Shown in pieces: positions 11,801 through 64,000 of a stretch of 64,000 bases of DNA; positions within the stretch are counted from its first letter, which is position 1, and every line of letters begins with the position of its first letter. The position numbers and the translations under genes were made by a program. The notes beneath the pieces were generated by a model. It was not told the DNA's origin and ran no database searches. It saw only the letters and a list, made by a program, of their open reading frames with translations. The stretch spans positions 808,501 to 872,500 of the forward strand of contig JABAKD010000011.1 of assembly GCA_012845835.1 (NCBI GenBank), read 5' to 3'. Source of the stretch: Undaria pinnatifida (lineage: Eukaryota; Sar; Phaeophyceae; Laminariales; Alariaceae).

Positions 11801-14800
11801 GGCGGGAAAGCGTATTATTTCCCGGACGAATTTTGATTTCATTTGGTTCGGATCTTCCCAGGGTTCCAGCACCTTAGTGTGACCACGGACTCTAGATTTT
11901 TTACAAGAGTCAATGTGAGATAACAACAACAACCAACAACAACAACAACAACAACAACCACGACAACAACAACGACATATTGTCATACATTGTACGCGGC
12001 CGTGAGTATCCTTGATATATCCTTGTTGCATATCGTACGATACCTGGTATTTAGTTTTGGACCTGACAATCTCGAGCCACCACGGGCGAAGAACACTTCG
12101 CCAGCGTGGCTTCGCATAGGCCATCCGCAGGTTGCCTGTGACCACAGCCAGGCTTGTATCGCTGCATTTCGGGTGAAGAATCGGCACGGACGCTGGATAT
12201 GACTCAGTTTGGGTAAGCTGTCGGTCAACCTTTTGCAAGTGGTCAAACGGACTAATACCCCACTAATACCTTAACAAATGGCATCGTCGGCAGGACATGG
12301 GTTTTTTGGATCGTGGGTTCGAGTCCCACATCCACCTATAATAATTTTTTTCAGACTTTCCCCATGTACTAGGGCATGACATTGCGTTGTCGAATGCATT
12401 ACGATGCATTATCTCTGTGTCGTAGCTTGTGACCACAGAGCTGATCTTTCTAGGGTGAAGAATCAGTACGGACACTGGGTGTGCTGGATGTCGACGAGTA
12501 GAAGAACGGTTTAATGTGAAGAACACACACACATGTCGAACTTAAGGAATACTCTCCCCGGTATCCCCAGGAAATGAAACGGCTTGGATATTGACAGGTC
12601 CACTCGTATATCCAGCCGACCTGCTATCCCGCCGTTTCAGGGGAGGGGAGTGTTACAAGGCGTAGTTTGGGTAAGCTATTGGTTGACCTTTTGCAAGTGG
12701 TCAAACGGACTAATATCCCACTAATATCCCAACAATATGCTATGTGTGATAATAGGGTATTTCAACATTTTCAAATTCCCAAAAAGACTTTTGTTAAACT
12801 TGAATTTTGAGAAAAGAAAGTTCATAATTGGAGAAGCGCTGAGAAGCGCTGTTTCAGGCATCCGAGCCCGCTCATCCGTCCGGAGAGGAGAATTCTCAAG
12901 TTTAGTGTGAAAAGCGAAAAAAATGGAGGCCTCTCAAGGCTTCTCAGGAAGTAGATATGTATTATTATTATTGCCCTCCGACAAAATAGCGTAGATGCCA
13001 TTCCGATGTAAATCGAATATCCTTCCATAACGCAGCAGTAGCACTTCATATGAAGTCGAATGATCGCACCATAATGCGGTGGTACATTCCGCCAACCATT
13101 TGCCCATTTCCTTTCCCCACATCTCCTCCTTTTATCTACTGTTTCTGTTTTCTAAATATGTTTCAGCTGAGAGTCTACCTTAATCCTCATCAGCATTCGT
13201 ACATAATAGGTAGTTATATTATACCTGTGGTAATTTTGATCCCATTTGTAATCTTGGCCCCTCTTTCTCGCTCACTCGAAGTCGTTACTCTGACCCGGGG
13301 TCACAAATTGAGCTATTTTCTCCCCCCGCCCCACCACGGTATTGCTGTTATCGCAAGAACAATTCAGCCCTTTTTTCCCTCGTCGATTGGCGCCGAGTTG
13401 TGCTTACTTATCAACGCTACTTCGAAGTATTAAGTATTAAGCGCTCTCAGCAGTTGGTGTCGTTGGAAAAACAAACGAAAAAAAGTAAATGCCGAGATTC
13501 GAACCCCGGACATCAACTCTATCTATTAATATTAATAGTACATAGCATTCGATTTCTTTTTCTCTTTTTTCATCCTCGGGCGGATGGGGTCGAAAAATCA
13601 AGCTTAAGCTCACCACACTTCCACGTATTTTCCTACACGTCGTGTGTCAATTCATCTCAATTGTATTCGCAATCCAGCGCGATAGCTGGCGTGTCCTTCA
13701 GTTCCCATGGTAGCGACAGCGCGAGCTGACCCTACCGGCGGTCCCCGTTGCTGCTCCGGCAGCGCAAGCATTCGAGGTATGCCGAACGAAGCAACGCAGT
13801 TGAACGTGAATAACGTTTAACAAGCAATCGACACACGACGTGTATGTAAATACGTGGAAACGTGGTGAGCTTAACCTTTATTTTTCCCCGCCCGCCGGAG
13901 GATACAAGAGTTGTGGGGACGGGGGAACTCTATGCTGTAGTTGAGTGGATACCCGCGGTCATGTGAGTTCAGTTTGCACATTGGACCTTTTCACTTATGC
14001 GCCTTTTTCCGTATCGTGCGTTTTTAGGCGGGAAAGCGTAGTATTTCACTGACGAATTTTGATTTCACTTGGTTTTTCGGATCTTCCTAGAGCTCCAGCA
14101 CCTTTGTGTGACCACGGACTCTAGATTTTTGACAAGAGTTAATGTGAGAAAACAACAACAACAACAAGAGAAAAAAAAAGTTAAACAAGCATTCCTTTGA
14201 CACCTTCGGCTGGTGTGCTTGCTTGCAAGTTTTCATAGTTTCACCGTGTGTTCATAGCTGGTGGCATTGCATCGCCAAATCACCTTGCTTTTTGTATTTG
14301 CAATATCTCTGTCTCGCAGTTTGTGACCACAGAGCTCCTCGCTCTCTTACGAATAACAGTTGGTTATTTTATTCGTCAAATCCTGCGAGGACTCACAACC
14401 CTACAATTAGTACGCCCACGAAAGAAAGAGAAAAAAAAAAAAGGGCTTGACAAGCTGCTGTGCATAATCTATATTTCACTTTGGCGTGCGATCTTCATCC
14501 TGTGTACTTCTGGCACACCACTACTACCTGCTACATGACATATTATACTCGTATATTTTTATCGAAATCCGCCGGAGTAGTAAACACTTCCACGCACTGG
14601 ATATCACCTCATTATCTTTCTAAAGCCATCCTTGCCGCTGCTGCAATTGCCACCCCTCCTCCGCCCCCAACGCCCCCTCCTTCCCCACCACCCGCACCAT
14701 CGCCCAGACCTAGCACCACGCGTATAGCAAACCCCTACATCTATGCGACCTAAAGCCCTTTCCCCCCCCTCCCCCCCCACCCCCCACCCCCCCCTCCCCC

Positions 14801-17800: not shown

Positions 17801-20800
17801 CCTGCTGCTGCTGTTGCTACGTACGAATACGAGAACAGTGTTTCAGACAAAGCTACAACAGGTAGCTACGTACAGCAGTATAGGTTCATCCTGCCGAGCT
17901 GGAGCATTTCGTAGGCGCACGAGCACGCAGTGCAAGAGTATACGAAAACACTGGCAGCTTCATCTGCTGCGCAGCACTTGCTGTACCGGGTGTGTTGTGT
18001 GTTGTCGGTTCTTTCTAATCAACCCAGTGTCCATCCTGATCATCAAACAGTACAGAGAGATAAGTAGTTGGCCTATTCTATTTGGTATCGGACGCGTACT
18101 GTTGTTTTACTTTCGTCGTTCTGTGTCGCTTTTGCCTTTACCTCGCCACACCCCCCCTCCTACTGGCGAGTTGTCTTCCTTGCTTTGTGCCTACGAAGAG
18201 AACATGCAGAATTCTGAAGACACGGTCAGTCACCTTGCTGGCCCCGGATGCTTGACCAGTGAAAACGTGATGAGAAACGCACTCAACACGTCTCTTCATG
18301 GCCAGACAATACGGTTAATCGGCGTGTGCCCGGATTTATCCGATCGAAATCTGATGAAGCTCGGATCGGATTAACGGCAGCAAGTAGTCCATTGTTAGGC
18401 TATATCGAATTCTTGGCGTTACCTTGAAACTGCTGTACGCGTAGACTATGTTTACGTGTGAAGTAACCTTTTTTACTTTCTGTCGAATATGGAATCGAAA
18501 TATTTCGAGGTGCTACCCTGCCCTACCCTGCCACCCTGCCCTACCCGAAGCATGGGTGCCGGCGAATGCGGAACCCTTGCATATGGTAAAATTGTGATAA
18601 AGCACACTACTAATACGCAGGGTAGTTCGTGCGTACCGTCTGCATTATTACTGCATGATCGCCTCCCAACCTGTGCCAAACGAAGTGACGCATGCCGAAC
18701 GAAGTAGTAACGTATTTGAGCGTTGACACATCAAGCGTCCCTTGGAAACGTTCAAGCCCGTGTACTGATTAGCACTCCTCCCCCTTGTGTTCATTGGCGG
18801 TGGCATTGGATGACCGCGTTACCTTGCTTGCTGTGTTTGCAATATGTATCTCCGTCTTAAAATTGGTGACCTCAGAGTCCCACATCGGCAAGGTTATTGA
18901 TTGTGCTGGATGTAAATGGGTGGAATATCAGTTTAGCGTCAAGATCACACACCTGTTGAATAATAACTATCATATCTGACACGCATTTTCAGTCGTAGTA
19001 TGGTATATTTAGAATAATGAAAATATTGTACATTGTTAAGATGCGGCCTCGAAAGGCCTGTAATCATCCGATTTTGAGATCATTTAGGTGGGTTTCGTAT
19101 TATAAGGTTGGCGGTTTATTTATCGGGAAAGTTAGGAATTAGATCGGAGGCACGTGCCTCCGATCTCAGAAGCTATCCCGGGCTCTGGTGGAAACGAATA
19201 AAGCTACATCTCTACAAAGGAACGAAAGTGAGTACTCTCCGAGGACCTGCTCAATTGGCAGACCTGCAGGGGGCACTCTGTGTCCCCCACCATTAATTTA
19301 ACAAGTGGCGTCGACGGCAGGACATTAATTTAACAACATATCATAGCAACATAAATATTTCGCAAACTTCCCACACAAGTCACTATCAAATAAATAGTCA
19401 TCATGGTGATACTACATGGTTGCATATGTCGAATGTTCCAATTTTGTGAATGTTCTATATTTCGGCCAACTACCCGATCCATGTATGATAACACACCACA
19501 AAGCCATTACACAATTGCATCATATACCGCAACTCTATTATTTTGCTATCATTCACCTCCGTCCCCCGCCACCACCACACACGCACCCCTTCCCCCACGC
19601 ACACAAGAAACACCGCCCCCTCCTCCCCCGCCGCCCCGCCTAAAATTAAATCTGCTGGAGTAATGAACACTATTAAACAGGTCGTATCACCTCATTGCCT
19701 ATCCAGCTAGCCATGCCGTAGCTCCGTTTCACCCCCCCCCCCCCGCCGCCGCCGCCCCCCTCCTTCCCCGCCACCCGCACCATCGCCTAGACTTAACACC
19801 ACACATTAAGTTCCTACCAGGTAGTATACATTTATGTGACCTCAAGCGGTTGTAGTCGCCCCCCCCTTCGAACACTCAGCCCTCTCCTCACCGGTTGTAC
19901 GACTTACAGGATATACATGGTAAACTGATGCATTCCTTCCACAACCGTCAGATTTGTCCCCTTCAAGGATTTATAGTTTCGGCGCACAGATTGAGTTGCC
20001 TCCCCCCCCTCCCCCCTTCTTTTCGGCCCCGGCCCCCAGTTTTTGTTTTTGTTTTTTAACTCCGCCCTCCCCTCACCGGTTATACGACTTACAGGATATA
20101 CTTGATAAACTGACGCATTTCCTGCCTCAGCCGTCAGATTTTGTCCTCCTCAAAAACGAGTTTTATAGTTTCCGCGCACAGATTGGTTAACATCACCCTG
20201 TTGACCCTGGTACAAGCTACACTGTAGTTCCAAGGGGAGTCGCCGACCTATATCCTTGATGAGGACACAGCTTGCAAAGATGAGTTTCGACGAAAATATC
20301 TTTGATCTCACAGCTGGAGTGTATTTTTATTTTTACAGTATAAACATGTGCATGCCAGTTTTTCTCTGTTACTTCTTGTTTTTTCTGTCCAGGACCTCCG
20401 GCAGATGGTGAAATATCAAATCGATTGCTCAAGCTCACCACAGTTCCACGTATATACTTTAACACGTGTCGTGTGCCATTTTAACGTAGATGGCTTCGCA
20501 ACCCAACGCTATGATAGCTGGCGTATCCTTACGTTTTCGTGGGAACGGCAGCGTATGTACGTCGATGGGCAGACATAACGGGTTGATGTGGCGAACACAA
20601 ATGTATGAGTAAAATATTATCTTCGTTTTTTTTTACTCGCTGCTCTCCGGCGGCCGAGTGTTTCTTCTCGCACTTTCGGCCGCGGGGCAAGCTAGCCTGC
20701 CATGGGTACATTTTGAAGCATGTCTGGATATCGGCCGAGCTCCGTGGCTGTGCTCGGCGCATTAAACGTCGCTTGGCTGGCTCTATTTGGCAAGGGATGG

Positions 20801-23800: not shown

Positions 23801-26800
23801 GTGTTGTTTGAGACACGAGAAATGGAGCAATGATTGAGATGCCATGGGCCATGAACGACGGCGATCTGACCAGCACCGACACCCTGCGTCCACAGATGCC
23901 TTCACATTTATCCTAGTTGTAGCCTGTGATTTGCATTTGCATGATACTAGGCGAGGGGACGCGACAAAAAGAAAGCGACAACACATTCCGTATTCCGCGG
24001 CAGCATGCGCTGGTGTAGTATCAACTGTGACCGCCGGTAGAGGCAGCTCGCGCTGTCCTTGCCGCGAGAACACCAGCTAGCGCTGGATTGCGAACACCAT
24101 TGAGTTAAATTGACGACGACATGTATGAAAATACGTGGGAGTGTGTTGAGCTCGAGTTCTACCTGGTACCAGGTATGTTTTTCTATCCGCCTGAGGGTTA
24201 AAATAAGATGACAAAAAAGAAACCACACACGAAACAAGGTCAGAATGAAAAACTAGGGCCTCTAGACATGGGGGGTGGTCTCTAAAACCAAGGAGACAAA
24301 AAGTGGAAAAAAAACGAGTTAAAACAATGTTTTTTCGCCCAAGTCGGCTTGTGATCGTAGCGATCCGGTTGGTTTTTCCTTCCGAGCTTTTTCGGTGTAT
24401 GGCGTCGTTTTCTCTATTTGTCGCTTGCCTCTGTACCAGATGTGATATTCCTGATTCTTCATGCCAGTACAACAGCCAGGGTGCTCGTTGTGTGTTTTTT
24501 ACATTATACTGACGATTCCACCCATCTACAATATATAGAGCACCACCAGTTGTTAAGTTATTGGTGGGATATTAGTCCGTTTTACCACTTGCAAAAGGTT
24601 AGCCAATAGCTTACCCGAACTAAGCCTTATAACACTCTCCCCCCCTGAAACGGCGGGATACCAGGTCGGCCGGATACACGGGCGGACCTGTCAATATCCA
24701 AGCGGTTTCATTTCCTGGGGATACCGGGGAGAGTATTTTTCAAGTTCGACATGTGGAAAGTCTGAAAAAGTATATTATTGTGGATGGTGGGATTCGAACC
24801 CATGACCCAAAAAAACCATGGTCCTGCCGACGACGCCATTTGTTAAGGAATTAGTGGGGTATTAGTCCGTTTGACCACTTGCTAAAAGTTAACCAATAGC
24901 TTACCCAAACTAGGTAAGCCTTATAACACAGTGTCCAAGCCGATGCCTCCTCCTGGAGAGACGACCACTGTGGTCACAAACTACAACACAGATACACATC
25001 GCCAAATACCGTAAGGTTCTGTGGCCATGCAATGCCAAACGCGATGAATACGCAAGCGGAACACGAAATTGCCAGCGCGCCAAACAGCTTGCGAGAAAGA
25101 GACAAAAAGGAAAAACGAAAGAAAAAAAGAAAGAGGCAGAAGAACAAAAAGTGGAAAGACAGAGTGAAAGACTAGCGCGGGGGAGGAGGAAAGAGGTGCT
25201 CAGGAAAACAAGACATTGGGTGAAAACGAAAACACGGAAAGGAAAGAAACGAAAAACCTGAGCCAAACGCAACAGCCAGCAACAAAACACCTGTAAAATA
25301 CCACCCCACCAGCGCCAGGGGCAGAACCCAGCTGGGTTCCGAACGCACCTACTGTATGAGTAGGACCGTTGCCGCATGGTCTACTGTAGTAGTAGTATTG
25401 GGGCAATATCGAGCTAGGTACCGGCTACTGCTATGCAGGGGTGCCTCTGGCTCTGTAGTGGTCAGTCACGCGAGGGTTGCTTGGATGTTACATCTCTGTT
25501 TTTAGATGTTTGCTGTCCCCCTCACACCTTCTAACAGAAGGGGGTGCGGAGCCGTTCGTTCAGGCAGGCGACAACGCCTGCCAGCAATAAAGGGGACAAC
25601 AGCTATAAATCATAACGCCGCAACGGGGTAGAGGGGATACCCCAACACTATCACCTGCTTGCTGCTTCTGACAATATATGGCTCCCATACCGCTATCATC
25701 TTCCCCCAAACCCAATACCTGGTACCAATAAAAAATTTACCTTAGAATAAAGATAAAAAGTAAGCAAAAGCACACAGCAGCCAAGAAAATAATACCACCC
25801 AACCGGCGGCGTCAATGCAGCACCCAAACTAGTTCCGAGTGCAGCTGCCATGGGAATAGCATGGAGATAGGAGTATTGCTACCTGGTCCGTCCTCTACCT
25901 ACTATATCTGACCGCGGCGGTGTCCATACCGCCAACGTCGCCTGCATACCCCCCAAGAGTACCCCAAAGGGAGGGGGGGTAGGCAAAGGAAACGGGGACA
26001 AAGGAATGGGTCGAGAAGGGAGGATGGTCTAAAAAGAACCAACACACTAGCGGTGGAAATAATGTAGTATCGGCCGGCACCCCCTCCCACGAGAGGAATG
26101 AGACAATAGATAAAAACACCACGGACAGGCGACGGGCTCTCAACCAAGGCCAAAACGAGTCGGACTCGAGGTAGTCGCAGCAGTTTGATGTAGCGTAGAC
26201 AGGTTTTTCCTGCTAGGCCTGGTGTCTTGCTAGCCTGTCTGCCGCCTCCTTGCTTTCTTCCACCTCAGTTTCTCTACCCCCCCCCCCACCCCCCGCTCTT
26301 TGGCATTTTGGACACCACGCATTCGGGATCCTTGGCGTTCCGAGCTCTTCTTTTCCTCCTCCTCGTGCCACCTGCCCATGAATCGTTCGGCTGCTCCGAG
26401 GATGCCTGGTAATATCCACCGGAATGACGTGCGATGACGATGATGATGACGATGATGATACTGATGAAAACGATAATGATACAGTATAAGACTCTACGTA
26501 GCTGTAATCGAAGTCAATTAGGAATGGGAACGGTGCTCCGTGTTGAAAGGGAGGCATGATGAATAACCAAATGACTAAGGCAAGCAACAAATGAGTACCC
26601 CCCACACACACACGCACGCCTCCCATGACCGCACGTGTGAAACAGTGCTCGAGCCCTGCTCCACCGGACTAGGGGGCGACTGCTTCATGCTGTACTACGA
26701 GGCGTCCACAAAAAAGGTCCATGCGCTAAATGGGTCGGGCATGGCACCGGCCGCCCTCACGCTGGAGCACTGCATGGCAGACCTCACCCCCCAAGTCGAA

Positions 26801-55522: not shown

Positions 55523-56440
55523 CAAACTCTGGAGCTGAGGAATATAGACAACAACAACAACAACAACAACAACAACCGACGGGGTGGCGGGGGCGCACGT
55601 CTTGAAGGCGTGTGTCCCCGTCGGGAGCTCAGGGTAGGGGTATTTGAGAAGAAAAAATAAGGGATAGAAAGTGAGAAATCTGAGAAAGATACGTACGCAT
55701 CGAGGAAAATATTGGTACCTGTTACGTACGAGAACGCATCGTGTGAAAACTGCGACACGGACGCGGCGGTGCGGGAGAAGGAAGGCAGCCCCGACAATCC
55801 AACAGTCTACAGCGACCGGCCTAGGAAGTGGGGTATTGGGCGAGCTCTCGATCGCACCACGCCGCGCCCGCTTGCGAGGGTGTGCGCGTACCGAAACGCG
55901 GCGGAACCTCGCAGTGAGCCGAATCAACGCTTGAGGGTGTGCGAGGCGAGTGGTGGCTTTGGAGGTTGAGAGCTGCTCCGCGGCGTGGAGGGAGGCACGA
56001 AGGAAGAAGGATTGCCCGGTTCGTGTCGATCGACGGATAAGAGAGGGAGGGGGGGAAGCTAGCTAGGTCGGTGGTCTCGGAGCAGAGAGGTACGAGTGGA
56101 AGTTACCTTCATCACCCAGCAGTCCATTTGGCAAAAAGATCGTCGTGGTCTCCTTGGCAGTAGCAGTGGGTCCACCGACGTAACCGCTGCTTTCGGAATC
56201 ACGTTCGGCCGGCAAAGCCTAAGATCGTGCGTTGCGCCTCGTCGTATTTATCTCTGACTGTCTAGACGCTGCCGTGTTGCCGGTGACCGCACCCTGTCCG
56301 CTGCTCGTTCTGCTGTTGGATGTATATAAAAGCGCGACGAGAAAGAGCGGAAAAGATATCACAGGATACGCTACGTACAATCTTGACGTACTTTTTGCTC
56401 GTACTCAATCAAGTGTATTTCATAAAAAATATACCAGGGA
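55521..56440. other. Spacer with SINE-1 scrap, nothing else recognised
   Basis: CTCTGGAGCTGAGGAATA followed by (AAC)n at 55527-55576 is a scrap of a SINE-1 end. The rest (55577-56440) is GC-richer with open frames on both strands, but I recognise no protein family. Confidence 0.45.
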
Positions 56441-56545
56441 TATATATTTCAAGGACGTCAGCCGTGAGTTCGACGAATTTCAGGTCAATAGACTACTCAT
56501 CTTTGCGAGCTGCGTTTCAGCTCTGTCTACTTGTACTCTTTTAAT
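56440..56545 (+). repeat. Repeat R5 fragment
   Basis: Contains TTCAAGGACGTCAGCCGTGA, GTTCGACGAATTTCAGGTCA and ACTCATCTTTGCGAGCTGCG, nearly identical to 51980-52045. Confidence 0.75.
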
Positions 56546-57262
56546 AGACTATGTACCTTATAGCAGAAGATACCCACGAGAGATACTGCTGTAGATTGGC
56601 GAGTGTATCGTTTCCGCGATTTAGACTGCTGCTGTCGTAAGACGCGCGAAACAACGAGCGTAAATAACATCGCGCCTTATTTTGGCGGTCTACTAGCCTA
56701 GTAGGTTCTAGATACTGCTGCTTGCTGTGCTGGTGCTGATCGCATTTGTTGTACTGTAAGTACGTCGCGTGAAAAAAGGCAAAACAAAGAGCGTAGTCTA
56801 AACGGTGCTGCACAAATTGCAGCCCAACCAACACAGCTTTAGGAGGGACGCTGTTTGGCGTGGCAATTGCTGGGGTTGGGAGGGGACACTACAGTATTAT
56901 TGTTGTGTGCCAGCATTCCAGTGTTGGCACAACTGTTTTTCGTTCGTTCTTTTATTTATTTATTTATTTACTTTTCGTGTGAGTTGGGGGCAGACAGCCC
57001 TTCCTTGGCTGTAACCTCTATCTTTCTTGCAGTCACTCGTACACTCGTACCCGCGGTTCGAGAAAAGGTCAACGTTCAGTCGCGAGCGAGGTAATTAAAC
57101 TGTAGTAGCCGTAACAATAATATTACAGCGGTCGCATGCGCCTCCTGCTGTTGTCTAACGTGGTCACATCGTGGATCACAACAAGAGGGGCGACCCGTAT
57201 CGCAAGAGGAGGTTTTGTGCACGGTAGAACCGGAAGGTCGATGAGAGGGGGGGGGGGTACTA

Positions 57263-58528
57263 ATGGCAGAGCCACAGAGAGAGCGAGAAGGCGGGGACTC
57301 TTTCCTTGCCACCGCCGATAGCATTGAGCAGCAATACCGCACGGCCTTCTGCGCGTTGAAATATACACGCAGCAGTTACAAATCAGCCATTTATATGGAT
57401 AGCGGGTTGTCGTTCGATGCTTCTTCGGAAGTGTATGGGGGGGAGGACTTGGCCCTTGCGGTCGGAAGTGGCAAGCGTAAGGGTGGGAGATTAGGCAGTG
57501 TTTTTGGGGAGGGGGTTAAGAGGGCAGGGTCACACAGAGAGCGAGACGGCGGGAATTCTGTCCCTGCCACGACCGACAGCATCAGCCAGCAACACCGCAC
57601 AGCCTTCTGCGCGTTGAAACATACACGCAGCAGTTACAAATCAGCCATTTATATGGATAGCGGGTCGTCATTCGATGCCTCTTCGGCAGTGTATGGAGGG
57701 GAGGACTTGGCCCTTGAGGTTGGAAGTGGCAGGGGTAGGGGTGAGAGCAGTAGTGTTTTAGGGGGAGGGGTTAAGAGGGTAGGGCCACAGAGAGAGCGAG
57801 ACGGCGGGGACTCTTTCCTTGCCACGGCCGATAGCATTGAGCAGCAATACCGCACGGCCTTCTGCGCGTTGAAATATACACGCAGCAGTTACAAACTAGC
57901 CATTTATATGGATAGCGGGTTGTCGTTCGATGCTTCTTTGAAAGTGTATGGGGGGGAGGACTTGGCCCTTGCGGTTGGAAGTGGCCAGCTCAAGGGTGGG
58001 AGAGGCAGTGTTTTTGGGGAGGGGGTTAAGAAGGCAGGGTCACACAGAGAGCGAGACGGCGGGAATTCTGTCCCTGCCACGACCGACAGCATCAGCCAGC
58101 AACACCGCACAGCCTTGTGCGCGTTGAAACATACACGCAGCAGTTACAAATCAGCCATTTATATGGATAGCGGGTCGTCATTCGATGCCTCTTCGGCAGC
58201 AGTGTATTGGGGGGAGGACTTGGCCCTTGCGGTCGGAAGTGGCAAGGATAGGGGTGGGAGCAGTAGTGTGTTTGGGGGAGGGGTTAAGAGGGTAGGGCCA
58301 CAGAGAGAGCGAGACGGCGGGGACTCTTTCCTTGCCACGGCCGATAGCATTAAGCAGCAATACCGCACAGCCTTCTGCGCGTTGAAACATACACGCAGCA
58401 GTTACAAACTAGCCATTTATATAGATAGCGGGTTGTTGTTCGATGCTTCTTCGGAAGTGTATGGGGGGGAGGACTTGGCCCTTGCGGCTGGAGGGGGCAG
58501 GGCCATGAAAACAGGGAGGTACATCTAG
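57263..58528 (+). CDS. Hypothetical protein of five 85-residue repeats
   Basis: An open frame of 421 codons starts MAEPQREREGG and ends AMKTGRYI-stop. It consists of five units of 85-86 residues carrying DS(F/V)(L/P)AT(A/T)DSI, QQ(Y/H)RTAFCALK, TRSSYK(S/L)AIY(M/I)DSG and YGGEDLAL. The units alternate in two subtypes (A: ADSIEQQYR..., B: TDSISQQHR...) as A-B-A-B-A. Size differences between units are single codons, so the frame is kept throughout, which hints at selection on a protein. I recognise no family, signal peptide or membrane segment. It could equally be a non-coding minisatellite whose period happens to be a multiple of three. No promoter or splice evidence is visible. Confidence 0.4.
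   Translation: MAEPQREREGGDSFLATADSIEQQYRTAFCALKYTRSSYKSAIYMDSGLSFDASSEVYGGEDLALAVGSGKRKGGRLGSVFGEGVKRAGSHRERDGGNSVPATTDSISQQHRTAFCALKHTRSSYKSAIYMDSGSSFDASSAVYGGEDLALEVGSGRGRGESSSVLGGGVKRVGPQRERDGGDSFLATADSIEQQYRTAFCALKYTRSSYKLAIYMDSGLSFDASLKVYGGEDLALAVGSGQLKGGRGSVFGEGVKKAGSHRERDGGNSVPATTDSISQQHRTALCALKHTRSSYKSAIYMDSGSSFDASSAAVYWGEDLALAVGSGKDRGGSSSVFGGGVKRVGPQRERDGGDSFLATADSIKQQYRTAFCALKHTRSSYKLAIYIDSGLLFDASSEVYGGEDLALAAGGGRAMKTGRYI
57290..58505 (+). repeat. Tandem repeat, 255-258-bp units in A-B-A-B-A order
   Basis: Landmark GCCATTTATATGGATAGCGG lies near 57387, 57645, 57900, 58155 and 58413 (the last copy with one change), giving spacings of 258, 255, 255 and 258 bp. Subtypes A and B alternate, implying that a 510-bp dimer was amplified after the two had diverged. 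Confidence 0.95.
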
Positions 58529-58645
58529 TATTTTCGTGGTTTTTGGTTGTTGGAAACATCGTTCCACGCTTTCATCTGGATTTTGTGTTCTTTCATCATG
58601 TTTATGGTTTTTGACACTCACGCTACATTGTCAGATGGCAAATGA

Positions 58646-58884
<239 letters not shown>

Positions 58885-58885
<1 letters not shown>

Positions 58886-59180
58886 AAAGATCAGGACGTC
58901 AGGTGTGAGTTCGACGAATTTCGGGTCAGTACTGACTCAGTACTCATATTATTTTGAAGCTGCCTGCAGGTACTTGTACTATGCTATGTGGGTAAAAAAA
59001 ATTAATGGGAGGGGTCCCATTCTTTTATAAACAAATGTTTTTCTCCACTACAATGATTGGTGTTAGTATCTTTACTTTAGATGGGGAATTTCGAAATGAT
59101 CTAACATCATATCTATTTTATAAAATTATTTCTGTAGTTTCCACTATACTGCTCTACCACATGATGATGTATGGTGGATG
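58885..59180 (+). repeat. Repeat R5, second long copy
   Basis: Matches 51950-52260 through GGACGTCAGGTGTGAGTTCG, GACGAATTTCGGGTCAGTAC, a GATGGGGAATTTC block, TCTAACATCATATCTATTTT and GTAGTTTCCACTATACTGCT. Confidence 0.68.
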
Positions 59181-59756
59181 GTTTGCGGATGGATGGCTTG
59201 GTCAGGGTTGTTGGTACTTGTGGTGAAGTGCGTAAGTATGTTTTCTCTACCTGGGGGTGGTTTTATATTATTATTATCTTATTTTATTTTTGCACTATAG
59301 TGGCGGGTTTTGGTATACATCGGGAGTATGAAGACAGTAGTAGTAGTGGTCTAATAGATATTATGTAAAAGTTCCACCTTAAAAAATATAAAATGAAATA
59401 AAACAAAACAAAATAAAATAAATTAACTTGATATAAATAAGTAAATATAATAAAATATACTGTCACCATACCATTTTACATGTAAAAGTCCCACTCTAAA
59501 AAACAAAACAAAACAAAAACAAAGACAAGAAACAAAAACAAAAACAAAAACAAAACAAAAACAAAACAAAAACAAAAAACAAGAAACAAAAAAACACCGG
59601 GAGTCGGTGAGCCTCGAACCCACGATTTGTACGTCGATGATTTCGATGAAGAATGATCGAACGATCGACATCCAACGCTATTATTAATAATGCAAAGTTT
59701 CAATATAATACTTGGAAGTGCATAATATTTACCCTCACCACTATTTCTTTCCCATC
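59181..59756. other. AT-rich spacer with a tRNA-like remnant before the array
   Basis: On the minus strand 59655-59590 reads a tRNA-like T arm (GTGGG-TTCGAGG-CTCAC) and ends in a T run, a possible pol III terminator. An (AAAAC)n stretch lies at 59505-59590. No gene is recognised. Confidence 0.5.
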
Positions 59757-62700
59757 TGATATAAGGCTTAGTTTGGGTAAGCTATTGGTTAACCAGTTGC
59801 AAGTGGTCGAACGGACTAATACCCCACTAATTCCTTAACAAATGGCGTCGTCGGCAGGACACGAACCTGCGCGTGAAATCACAATGGGTTTCCAATCCAT
59901 TGTGATTAACAAATGGCGTCGTCGACAGACCATGGGTTTTTGGGTCGTGGGTTCGATCCCCACCATCCACAATAATAAACTTTTCAGATTTTCCCCATGT
60001 CGAACTTGAAAAATACTCTCCCTGGTATCCCCAGGAAATGAAACGGCTTGGATAATTGACAGGTCCGCCCGTATATCCGGCCGACCTGCTATTCCGCCGT
60101 TTCAGGGGGGGAGAGTGTTATAAGGCTTAGTTTGGGTAAGCTATTGGTTAACCAGTTGCAAGTGGTCGAACGGACTAATACCCCACTAATTCCTTAACAA
60201 ATGGCGTCGTCGGCAGGACACGAACCTGCGCGTGAAATCACAATGGGTTTCCAATCCATTGTGATTAACAAATGGCGTCGTCGACAGACCATGGGTTTTT
60301 GGGTCGTGGGTTCGATCCCCACCATCCACAATAATAAACTTTTCAGATTTTCCCCATGTCGAACTTGAAAAATACTCTCCCTGGTATCCCCAGGAAATGA
60401 AACGGCTTGGATAATTGACAGGTCCGCCCGTATATCCGGCCGACCTGCTATTCCGCCGTTTCAGGGGGGGAGAGTGTTATAAGGCTTAGTTTGGGTAAGC
60501 TATTGGTTAACCAGTTGCAAGTGGTCGAACGGACTAATACCCCACTAATTCCTTAACAAATGGCGTCGTCGGCAGGACACGAACCTGCGCGTGAAATCAC
60601 AATGGGTTTCCAATCCATTGTGATTAACAAATGGCGTCGTCGACAGACCATGGGTTTTTGGGTCGTGGGTTCGATCCCCACCATCCACAATAATAAACTT
60701 TTCAGATTTTCCCCATGTCGAACTTGAAAAATACTCTCCCTGGTATCCCCAGGAAATGAAACGGCTTGGATAATTGACAGGTCCGCCCGTATATCCGGCC
60801 GACCTGCTATTCCGCCGTTTCAGGGGGGGAGAGTGTTATAAGGCTTAGTTTGGGTAAGCTATTGGTTAACCAGTTGCAAGTGGTCGAACGGACTAATACC
60901 CCACTAATTCCTTAACAAATGGCGTCGTCGGCAGGACACGAACCTGCGCGTGAAATCACAATGGGTTTCCAATCCATTGTGATTAACAAATGGCGTCGTC
61001 GACAGACCATGGGTTTTTGGGTCGTGGGTTCGATCCCCACCATCCACAATAATAAACTTTTCAGATTTTCCCCATGTCGAACTTGAAAAATACTCTCCCT
61101 GGTATCCCCAGGAAATGAAACGGCTTGGATAATTGACAGGTCCGCCCGTATATCCGGCCGACCTGCTATTCCGCCGTTTCAGGGGGGGAGAGTGTTATAA
61201 GGCTTAGTTTGGGTAAGCTATTGGTTAACCAGTTGCAAGTGGTCGAACGGACTAATACCCCACTAATTCCTTAACAAATGGCGTCGTCGGCAGGACACGA
61301 ACCTGCGCGTGAAATCACAATGGGTTTCCAATCCATTGTGATTAACAAATGGCGTCGTCGACAGACCATGGGTTTTTGGGTCGTGGGTTCGATCCCCACC
61401 ATCCACAATAATAAACTTTTCAGATTTTCCCCATGTCGAACTTGAAAAATACTCTCCCTGGTATCCCCAGGAAATGAAACGGCTTGGATAATTGACAGGT
61501 CCGCCCGTATATCCGGCCGACCTGCTATTCCGCCGTTTCAGGGGGGGAGAGTGTTATAAGGCTTAGTTTGGGTAAGCTATTGGTTAACCAGTTGCAAGTG
61601 GTCGAACGGACTAATACCCCACTAATTCCTTAACAAATGGCGTCGTCGGCAGGACACGAACCTGCGCGTGAAATCACAATGGGTTTCCAATCCATTGTGA
61701 TTAACAAATGGCGTCGTCGACAGACCATGGGTTTTTGGGTCGTGGGTTCGATCCCCACCATCCACAATAATAAACTTTTCAGATTTTCCCCATGTCGAAC
61801 TTGAAAAATACTCTCCCTGGTATCCCCAGGAAATGAAACGGCTTGGATAATTGACAGGTCCGCCCGTATATCCGGCCGACCTGCTATTCCGCCGTTTCAG
61901 GGGGGGAGAGTGTTATAAGGCTTAGTTTGGGTAAGCTATTGGTTAACCAGTTGCAAGTGGTCGAACGGACTAATACCCCACTAATTCCTTAACAAATGGC
62001 GTCGTCGGCAGGACACGAACCTGCGCGTGAAATCACAATGGGTTTCCAATCCATTGTGATTAACAAATGGCGTCGTCGACAGACCATGGGTTTTTGGGTC
62101 GTGGGTTCGATCCCCACCATCCACAATAATAAACTTTTCAGATTTTCCCCATGTCGAACTTGAAAAATACTCTCCCTGGTATCCCCAGGAAATGAAACGG
62201 CTTGGATAATTGACAGGTCCGCCCGTATATCCGGCCGACCTGCTATTCCGCCGTTTCAGGGGGGGAGAGTGTTATAAGGCTTAGTTTGGGTAAGCTATTG
62301 GTTAACCAGTTGCAAGTGGTCGAACGGACTAATACCCCACTAATTCCTTAACAAATGGCGTCGTCGGCAGGACACGAACCTGCGCGTGAAATCACAATGG
62401 GTTTCCAATCCATTGTGATTAACAAATGGCGTCGTCGACAGACCATGGGTTTTTGGGTCGTGGGTTCGATCCCCACCATCCACAATAATAAACTTTTCAG
62501 ATTTTCCCCATGTCGAACTTGAAAAATACTCTCCCTGGTATCCCCAGGAAATGAAACGGCTTGGATAATTGACAGGTCCGCCCGTATATCCGGCCGACCT
62601 GCTATTCCGCCGTTTCAGGGGGGGAGAGTGTTATAAGGCTTAGTTTGGGTAAGCTATTGGTTAACCAGTTGCAAGTGGTCGAACGGACTAATACCCCACT

Positions 62701-64000
62701 AATTCCTTAACAAATGGCGTCGTCGGCAGGACACGAACCTGCGCGTGAAATCACAATGGGTTTCCAATCCATTGTGATTAACAAATGGCGTCGTCGACAG
62801 ACCATGGGTTTTTGGGTCGTGGGTTCGATCCCCACCATCCACAATAATAAACTTTTCAGATTTTCCCCATGTCGAACTTGAAAAATACTCTCCCTGGTAT
62901 CCCCAGGAAATGAAACGGCTTGGATAATTGACAGGTCCGCCCGTATATCCGGCCGACCTGCTATTCCGCCGTTTCAGGGGGGGAGAGTGTTATAAGGCTT
63001 AGTTTGGGTAAGCTATTGGTTAACCAGTTGCAAGTGGTCGAACGGACTAATACCCCACTAATTCCTTAACAAATGGCGTCGTCGGCAGGACACGAACCTG
63101 CGCGTGAAATCACAATGGGTTTCCAATCCATTGTGATTAACAAATGGCGTCGTCGACAGACCATGGGTTTTTGGGTCGTGGGTTCGATCCCCACCATCCA
63201 CAATAATAAACTTTTCAGATTTTCCCCATGTCGAACTTGAAAAATACTCTCCCTGGTATCCCCAGGAAATGAAACGGCTTGGATAATTGACAGGTCCGCC
63301 CGTATATCCGGCCGACCTGCTATTCCGCCGTTTCAGGGGGGGAGAGTGTTATAAGGCTTAGTTTGGGTAAGCTATTGGTTAACCAGTTGCAAGTGGTCGA
63401 ACGGACTAATACCCCACTAATTCCTTAACAAATGGCGTCGTCGGCAGGACACGAACCTGCGCGTGAAATCACAATGGGTTTCCAATCCATTGTGATTAAC
63501 AAATGGCGTCGTCGACAGACCATGGGTTTTTGGGTCGTGGGTTCGATCCCCACCATCCACAATAATAAACTTTTCAGATTTTCCCCATGTCGAACTTGAA
63601 AAATACTCTCCCTGGTATCCCCAGGAAATGAAACGGCTTGGATAATTGACAGGTCCGCCCGTATATCCGGCCGACCTGCTATTCCGCCGTTTCAGGGGGG
63701 GAGAGTGTTATAAGGCTTAGTTTGGGTAAGCTATTGGTTAACCAGTTGCAAGTGGTCGAACGGACTAATACCCCACTAATTCCTTAACAAATGGCGTCGT
63801 CGGCAGGACACGAACCTGCGCGTGAAATCACAATGGGTTTCCAATCCATTGTGATTAACAAATGGCGTCGTCGACAGACCATGGGTTTTTGGGTCGTGGG
63901 TTCGATCCCCACCATCCACAATAATAAACTTTTCAGATTTTCCCCATGTCGAACTTGAAAAATACTCTCCCTGGTATCCCCAGGAAATGAAACGGCTTGG
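59757..64000 (+). mobile_element. Tandem array of TRIM units, 359-bp period, to window end
   Basis: Units start at 59757, 60116, 60475 and so on every 359 bp to 63706: eleven complete units and 295 bp of a twelfth. Each is one 84-bp LTR (TGTTATAAGG...CCTTAACA) plus 275 bp internal, so LTR and internal parts alternate singly, as in a concatemer of one-LTR circles. Each unit holds the tRNA-Ser primer site, about 57-60 nt of antisense tRNA-Ser(GGA), a second LTR-end plus primer-site copy, a sense B box (GGGTTCGATCCCC), a CCTGG/CCAGG hairpin and the polypurine tract CAGGGGGGGAGAG. Units look identical apart from one base at the first LTR start. No coding capacity. It looks whole as a repeat and very recently homogenised. 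Confidence 0.95.
59843..59902 (-). other. Captured tRNA-Ser(GGA) 3' part in the array unit (first of 12)
   Basis: On the minus strand this reads an anticodon arm ATGGA-TTGGAAA-CCCAT (anticodon GGA), a long class II variable arm (GTGATTTCAC), a T arm GCAGG-TTCGTGT-CCTGC, an acceptor strand CGACGAC, discriminator G and CCA. That is a tRNA-Ser from the anticodon stem to its post-transcriptional CCA, repeated in every 359-bp unit. It has no 5' half, so it is not a tRNA gene. T-loop position 58, always A in tRNAs, is T. Only the first 18 nt would be needed as a primer site. Confidence 0.85.

Follow-up and report, generated by a model that had tools for sequence, protein, structure and literature searches.

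LTR elements of the Undaria pinnatifida genome repeatedly hold the antisense sequence of their own replication primer, a mature CCA-tailed tRNA-Ser, joined at the primer site. About 200 chromosomal places carry such integrated products, and we consider it likely, with good confidence, that they form a chromosomal archive of the modifications of one tRNA. Modified nucleotides I34, m2,2G26 and m1A58 would be recorded there as base changes or stops, with frequent read-through of m1A58, inheritance of the primer sequence (unlike Ty1 and Ty3) and snap-back palindromes on the anticodon hairpin. In retroviruses, replication is generally considered to rely on the arrest of plus-strand synthesis at 18 nt by a methylated tRNA base. 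As to the origin of these products, they were very probably generated by read-through of the mature modified primer tRNA, after which the over-long plus strand was rejoined, completed and integrated; the ancestor of the tandem array described below would have arisen by snap-back and switch.

The window, the whole 64,000-nucleotide stretch of DNA analysed here, runs at its end into a tandem array of TRIM units (Table 1). As computed from genome-wide matches, the whole array is composed of 17 units and a closing LTR (C13:868257-874443). Since CATC flanks it on both sides, the array is placed in the chromosome as an ordinary integrated element would be. All 10 units between the LTR starts at 60116 and 63706 were identical (359 nt), the first unit differed from these ten by one base, and one more base change was detected, in one unit, across the full 17-unit array. 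Each unit begins with the 84-nt LTR, AA and 58 nt of antisense tRNA-Ser, continues with TGTGATT, the LTR end AACA and a further AA, and then has a second, slightly diverged primer site ahead of the TRIM internal domain and the polypurine tract. The organization is that of TRIM, with short direct LTRs and with a primer site and a polypurine tract between them. Target duplication at the constant length of 4 bp was observed for the array, for the single copy at 24551 and, as an exact repeat, for 7 of the 46 TRIM records tested.

Table 1. Features of the window (positions counted from its first nucleotide)
Feature	Position	Strand	Remark
Ordinary single TRIM copy with extra internal sequence	12197..12734	+	Without tRNA insert
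Family-2 LTR, primer site of exactly 18 nt and repeated LTR end	19034..19335	+	ACAT on both sides
Ordinary single TRIM copy	24551..24928	-	Target duplication CAGT; without insert
Tandem array of 359-nt TRIM units	59757..64000	+	Runs past the window to 17 units and a final LTR; target duplication CATC
LTR of first array unit, TG...CA	59757..59840	+	84 nt
First primer binding site	59843..59860	+	18 nt, complementary to the tRNA-Ser 3' end including CCA
Captured primer, tRNA-Ser(AGA) nt 27 to CCA	59843..59900	-	With G34 and T58
Left arm of perfect 11-bp inverted repeat	59877..59887	+	Variable arm and anticodon stem
Right arm of 11-bp inverted repeat	59897..59907	+	Last 7 nt TGTGATT (59901-59907) non-tRNA, complementary to left arm; proposed snap-back extension
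LTR end TTAACA, repeated behind the proposed switch	59906..59911	+	
Second, diverged primer site	59914..59931	+	Followed by normal TRIM internal domain
Polypurine tract	60105..60115	+	Ahead of the next LTR

A sequence-only reading of this DNA had proposed that the array unit carries about 57-60 nt of its tRNA-Ser primer and that single TRIM copies have no such insert. Both proposals held: the segment is 58 nt long, antisense from nt 76 to nt 27, and lies right after the LTR, and the insert is lacking from both single TRIM copies of the window. The repeated TTAACA end and the second primer site were likewise found as described; the preceding 7 nt, TGTGATT, are not of tRNA origin and complete a hairpin. 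The resulting inverted repeat encloses the anticodon loop and is perfect over its 11 bp. ARAGORN called no tRNA gene in the window, and the tmRNA-like Rfam matches in the array were all below the gathering score. A retrozyme was considered and rejected, as the 26 Rfam matches obtained for 56000-64000 (E up to 1) included no hammerhead.

Several other features of the window and of ordinary TRIMs were noted. The TRIM internal domain, for instance at 59940-59975, contains just past the primer site a sense-strand stretch similar to the T arm and acceptor of tRNA (GTGGGTTCGATCCCCACCATCCAC), and a diverged form of this stretch is also present in the two single TRIM copies. Ordinary TRIMs form short tandem arrays or clusters elsewhere too, for example at C19:5857946-5859098, C32:26961242-26961821 and C48:6591137-6592566. 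The family-2 element at 19034 looks as if synthesis had halted at the canonical m1A58 length and then jumped to the LTR end; the alternative is a simple deletion. Ahead of the array, a 421-aa open frame of about five repeats (255-bp tandem repeat) occupies 57263-58528, and for a Copia protein of the window, Ectocarpus and Pylaiella supply the only named relatives among the 120 listed of 1712, which points to a probable brown-algal host.

Capture of the primer is not unique to the array, as was revealed by a genome-wide survey. In the assembly searched (511 Mb, 68 contigs), 266 places match 25 nt of the tRNA T arm and acceptor with at most one mismatch; among the matches listed, the exact 25 nt were located 17 times in the array and 72 times elsewhere. 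When nt 58 and one acceptor base were left open, T arm plus CCA was detected at 234 places, 17 in the array and 217 outside, with several LTR families involved. The events behind these 217 places are fewer, since some places are arranged in tandem, as on C30, where three follow each other at intervals of 953 bases. For comparison, the genome contains 2681 exact copies of the joint between TRIM LTR end and primer site; of the 100 such joints listed, all of them on C1, 4 coincide with places of T arm plus CCA. DNA scanning of viral contigs gave 0 matches for the tRNA T arm and 0 for the LTR-primer joint.

For detailed analysis 99 records were read, consisting of 98 distinct non-array contexts and one array unit. 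All 72 exact non-array places were retrieved, and any that lacked the exact CCA pattern (L052, for instance) were kept outside the 99. The records are not all independent, since L169 and L170 appear to derive from a single event and L154 contributes two arms. In 93 of the 99 records, a recognisable LTR of opposite sense lies behind CCA at the spacing of a primer site (at most 7 errors in 27-28 nt), a criterion that was passed by 1 of 1000 random sequences; the LTR match was only weak in the other 6. The LTRs behind CCA belong to TRIM or to at least two other families: sorting of the 99 records with up to 9 errors gave 51 for TRIM, 19 for F2a, 12 for F3, 11 for F2b and 5 for F3b, and L122 matched worse. 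The copied sequence includes the post-transcriptional CCA and starts at the primer joint, as is predicted for read-through of the primer.

We next compared the copies with the tRNA genes. An exact whole-genome pattern with nt 26 and nt 34 open matched 38 places, including 10 genes for tRNA-Ser (six with anticodon AGA, four with CGA). All ten were read; CCA is encoded in none of them, G26 and A58 are present throughout, and nt 34 is A in six and C in four. The sequence-only reading had named tRNA-Ser(GGA) as the source. No gene of this type was found with one exact whole-genome pattern, and when the array segment is compared with the AGA gene extended by CCA, only two differences appear, A to G at nt 34 and A to T at nt 58; a genomic tRNA-Ser nearly identical from nt 27 to CCA does exist, as had been predicted, and it is of the AGA type. 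Among the 38 places, A34 occurs only together with G26, in the six AGA genes. At the 27 places without G26, nt 34 is G in 17, C in 10 and never A, and the sole place with G26 and G34 is a tRNA-LTR fusion (L175). Fourteen of these 27 were read, and 12 run from CCA into an LTR; no clear LTR follows the CCA of L107, and L114 ends short of CCA.

Marked deviation from the genes was observed at three positions. At the 217 non-array CCA places, nt 58 is T in 121, A in 65 and G or C in 31, and the control position nt 57 deviates in 7 of 224. This position was judged from the 217 places, because the 99 records had been chosen non-randomly with respect to nt 58 (loci were first picked by T58). Within the 99 records, deviations were counted at nt 34 in 75 of 78 cases, 16 of them with the C of the CGA tRNA, and at nt 26 in 28 of 42, against a mean deviation of 5.6% at other tRNA positions. 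The copies have mostly A, T or C at nt 26 and mostly T or G at nt 58, and G26 was retained in 4 of the 31 records starting at nt 20 or earlier. The share of A58 is suggestive of a difference between families (about 8 of 46 versus 8 of 11, with L093 moved by hand and L154 counted twice).

The changes at nt 26, 34 and 58 are those that would be expected when reverse transcriptase reads a mature tRNA carrying m2,2G26, I34 and m1A58. We infer these modifications from the mismatches together with the known chemistry of eukaryotic tRNA-Ser, m2,2G26 being what we take to be the modification at nt 26. The presence of I34 in tRNA-Ser(AGA) and of m1A58 in primer tRNAs is stated in the available part of PMC13191261. 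If G34 represents inosine read as G, the apparent tRNA-Ser(GGA) is tRNA-Ser(AGA/IGA), and the GGA anticodon would itself be evidence of copying from RNA.

The points at which the tRNA copy ends were also clustered. Ends at nt 27 were found in 19 of the 99 records (p ~ 2e-12), at nt 26-28 in 30 (p ~ 3e-12), at nt 36-37 in 14 (p ~ 2e-4), and at nt 1, indicating run-off, in 14 (p ~ 8e-8), after removal of L018, of which the alignment ran into the second primer site; these p values are against an even spread over 43 positions, for records that are not all independent. The ends at nt 27 may include some ends at nt 26 with a misread base. The cluster at nt 36-37 often continues with GG, which a simple stop fails to explain. 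Base changes at nt 26, 34 and 58 and ends at nt 27, 36-37 and 1 altogether give the pattern expected for copying of modified tRNA nucleotides.

The sequences beyond the tRNA indicate the fate of the captured copies. An exact 4-bp duplication around the whole carrier was detected for the array, L018, L045, L047, L076, L081, L092 and L121, and one was recognised by eye for L034. As the duplication lies outside the whole element in these nine carriers, capture preceded integration there. The tRNA copy continues into internal sequence and a second LTR in L018, L045, L047, L076, L081 and L092; in L121 it continues into a short LTR end and then the duplication, in L052 into an inverted LTR, and in L093 into a second tRNA copy. 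Of the 46 TRIM records tested (L142, L156 and L171, TRIM records of which the LTR start was not recognised, were left out), 27 had no recognisable far end. A target duplication directly beside the tRNA end was absent in 36 of 46 cases, for which reason the search was moved further outward.

One of the records, L154, forms a near-perfect palindrome around the anticodon loop, its arms being at least 154 nt long with 2 mismatches. It looks like a completed snap-back, as would result from a plus strand that ended at nt 27, folded back onto its anticodon stem and served as its own template. L050 may show snap-back, of 2 nt as measured by script and 4 nt by eye; in the other testable fusions it was 0-1 nt. 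Since clear snap-back outside the array was found only in L154, it is a minority route. Other rearrangements were noted by inspection: the anticodon stem-loop of L079, L092, L121, L126 and L171 seems inverted, as if copied from a palindromic intermediate; in L081 (C22:4395768) TRIM pieces lie in opposite orientations around the tRNA-LTR fusion, forming a nested inverted structure; and in L018 (C25:8282596) CCTTAAC is common to the antisense of the tRNA D loop and to the end of the TRIM LTR, and the switch to the LTR end appears to fall within it.

The following series of events is proposed. During plus-strand strong-stop synthesis, reverse transcriptase would misread m1A58 instead of stopping and read I34 as G, and would then pause in the anticodon loop or at m2,2G26, or run off the 5' end of the tRNA. 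Being over-long, the plus strand could not form the normal pairing with the minus-strand copy of the primer site, and would join the LTR end, internal sequence or another strand, to be followed by completion and integration. For the array ancestor, synthesis may have stopped at nt 27, the strand may have folded on its anticodon stem and copied 7 nt of itself, and a switch through TT may then have led to the end of U5. The new element would later have been multiplied in place to 17 near-identical units. Plus-strand read-through followed by template switch had already been suggested by the sequence-only reading and is strongly supported at many loci; the snap-back step to which the array junction points was not part of that proposal. 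Likewise, its suggestion that the captured variant was later amplified agrees with the local array of 17 units at one locus, the only site of amplification seen, and does not extend to spread, of which there was no sign; a view that the variant was favoured or has spread is not supported.

The tRNA segments could be considered to originate from a tRNA-derived SINE or a tRNA gene inserted beside an LTR and then amplified, because the strand opposite to the element reads as tRNA and because ARAGORN calls some full-length fusions tRNA genes. Such an origin is highly improbable: 93 of 99 records run from CCA into a recognisable LTR, with several families represented, the start points differ between loci, and base changes are located at modified positions. 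No target duplication of the tRNA piece itself was seen, the systematic search having covered duplications around the whole insertion. A SINE in particular was rejected, as a shared body unrelated to tRNA is absent, several LTR families stand on the CCA side, and the sequence on the other side differs. Post-insertion recombination between integrated LTR elements and tRNA genes might be imagined from the repetitive nature of both sequences, but the ten genes read have no CCA and carry the wrong bases at nt 26, at nt 34 (AGA type) and at nt 58, so that its probability is close to negligible.

Two other pathways retain reverse transcription and differ in its course. In one, the plus strand jumped to another, free tRNA-Ser and then onward, without a continuous run into the attached primer. 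Recombination mediated by tRNA is known in HIV (quoted in the accessible section of PMC12220202), but a primer already attached to the minus strand makes the extra jump needless, and the LTR-tRNA joint is the primer joint; we regard this pathway as improbable. In the other, the array junction was formed in two steps, namely, a capture as in L018, with read-through of G26 to nt 18 and a switch via the CCTTAAC common to the D-loop antisense and the LTR end, and later perfection of the hairpin by template switching in chromosomal DNA. This possibility gains from L018 itself, which is 95% identical and has TCCAT-ACCCTTAACAAATGG at the corresponding place. On the other hand, G58 in L018 versus T58 in the array suggests separate captures, and complete snap-back exists elsewhere (L154); we thus consider the two-step formation possible but rather unlikely, and prefer direct snap-back of the over-long plus strand.

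In HIV, plus-strand strong-stop synthesis normally stops at m1A58, with a minor stop at modified A37, and unmodified tRNA is copied to its end (available text of PMC13191261). Read-through of unmodified or undermethylated tRNA-Lys3 by HIV-1 is thus alike in copying past nt 58, in the minor stop at A37 and in run-off at the tRNA 5' end. There it is a side product in vitro or in cell culture (PMC13191261), whereas the products found here are chromosomally fixed at many places and pass a nucleotide that appears to be methylated. A tRNA-Gly with CCA was reported at deleted HIV proviruses, together with tRNA-mediated HIV recombination, and a cloned MMLV circle contained tRNA-Gly between LTRs (Colicelli and Goff 1986, quoted in PMC12220202; both from the accessible section of that paper). 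These cases share with ours a nearly full-length, reverse-transcribed tRNA with CCA at LTR ends, one of them integrated; as presented there they are few, derived from culture and due to a spurious primer, in contrast to the regular primer, many loci and modification footprint observed here (PMC12220202).

In Ty1 and Ty3, the primer sequence is not inherited, according to the portion of PMC5371799 available. Ty1/Ty3 and the elements described here have in common that rejoining takes place at the U5 end beside the primer site, as though the minus strand continued into U5 (PMC5371799); the latter do inherit primer sequence. Cassandra TRIM arrays are similarly head-to-tail with shared LTRs, and no captured primer is mentioned in the accessible text (PMC7215508). 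Helenus TRIMs also contain tRNA-like sequence, as described in the available part of PMC10886601. We rejected Helenus as an explanation, since its tRNA-like part lies inside both LTRs and has pol III boxes, whereas the segment found here is antisense, outside the LTR and primer-derived (PMC10886601). In the main text of an Ectocarpus transposon survey the words tRNA and solo both occur 0 times (PMC12477816). Within the open-licence literature (titles, abstract openings and top matches), no genome-wide set of chromosomal primer-tRNA captures and no such record of modifications was found.

The large number of natural integrations shows the outcome when the plus-strand stop fails. The finding bears on the old question of whether LTR retrotransposons inherit primer sequence, and on whether primer tRNA joined to LTR DNA enters chromosomes. 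Such chromosomal entry has been proposed for the origin of some SINEs; Ohshima and colleagues in 1993 reportedly regarded strong-stop DNA with primer tRNA as the ancestor of tRNA-Lys SINEs. Under their proposal, primer tRNA should be found fused to LTR strong-stop sequence in chromosomes, as is the case here; the fusions described here differ in giving no sign of SINE-like spread. From the captured primers, tRNA modification, stop sites and template switching can be read off the genome, which would normally call for in vitro work.
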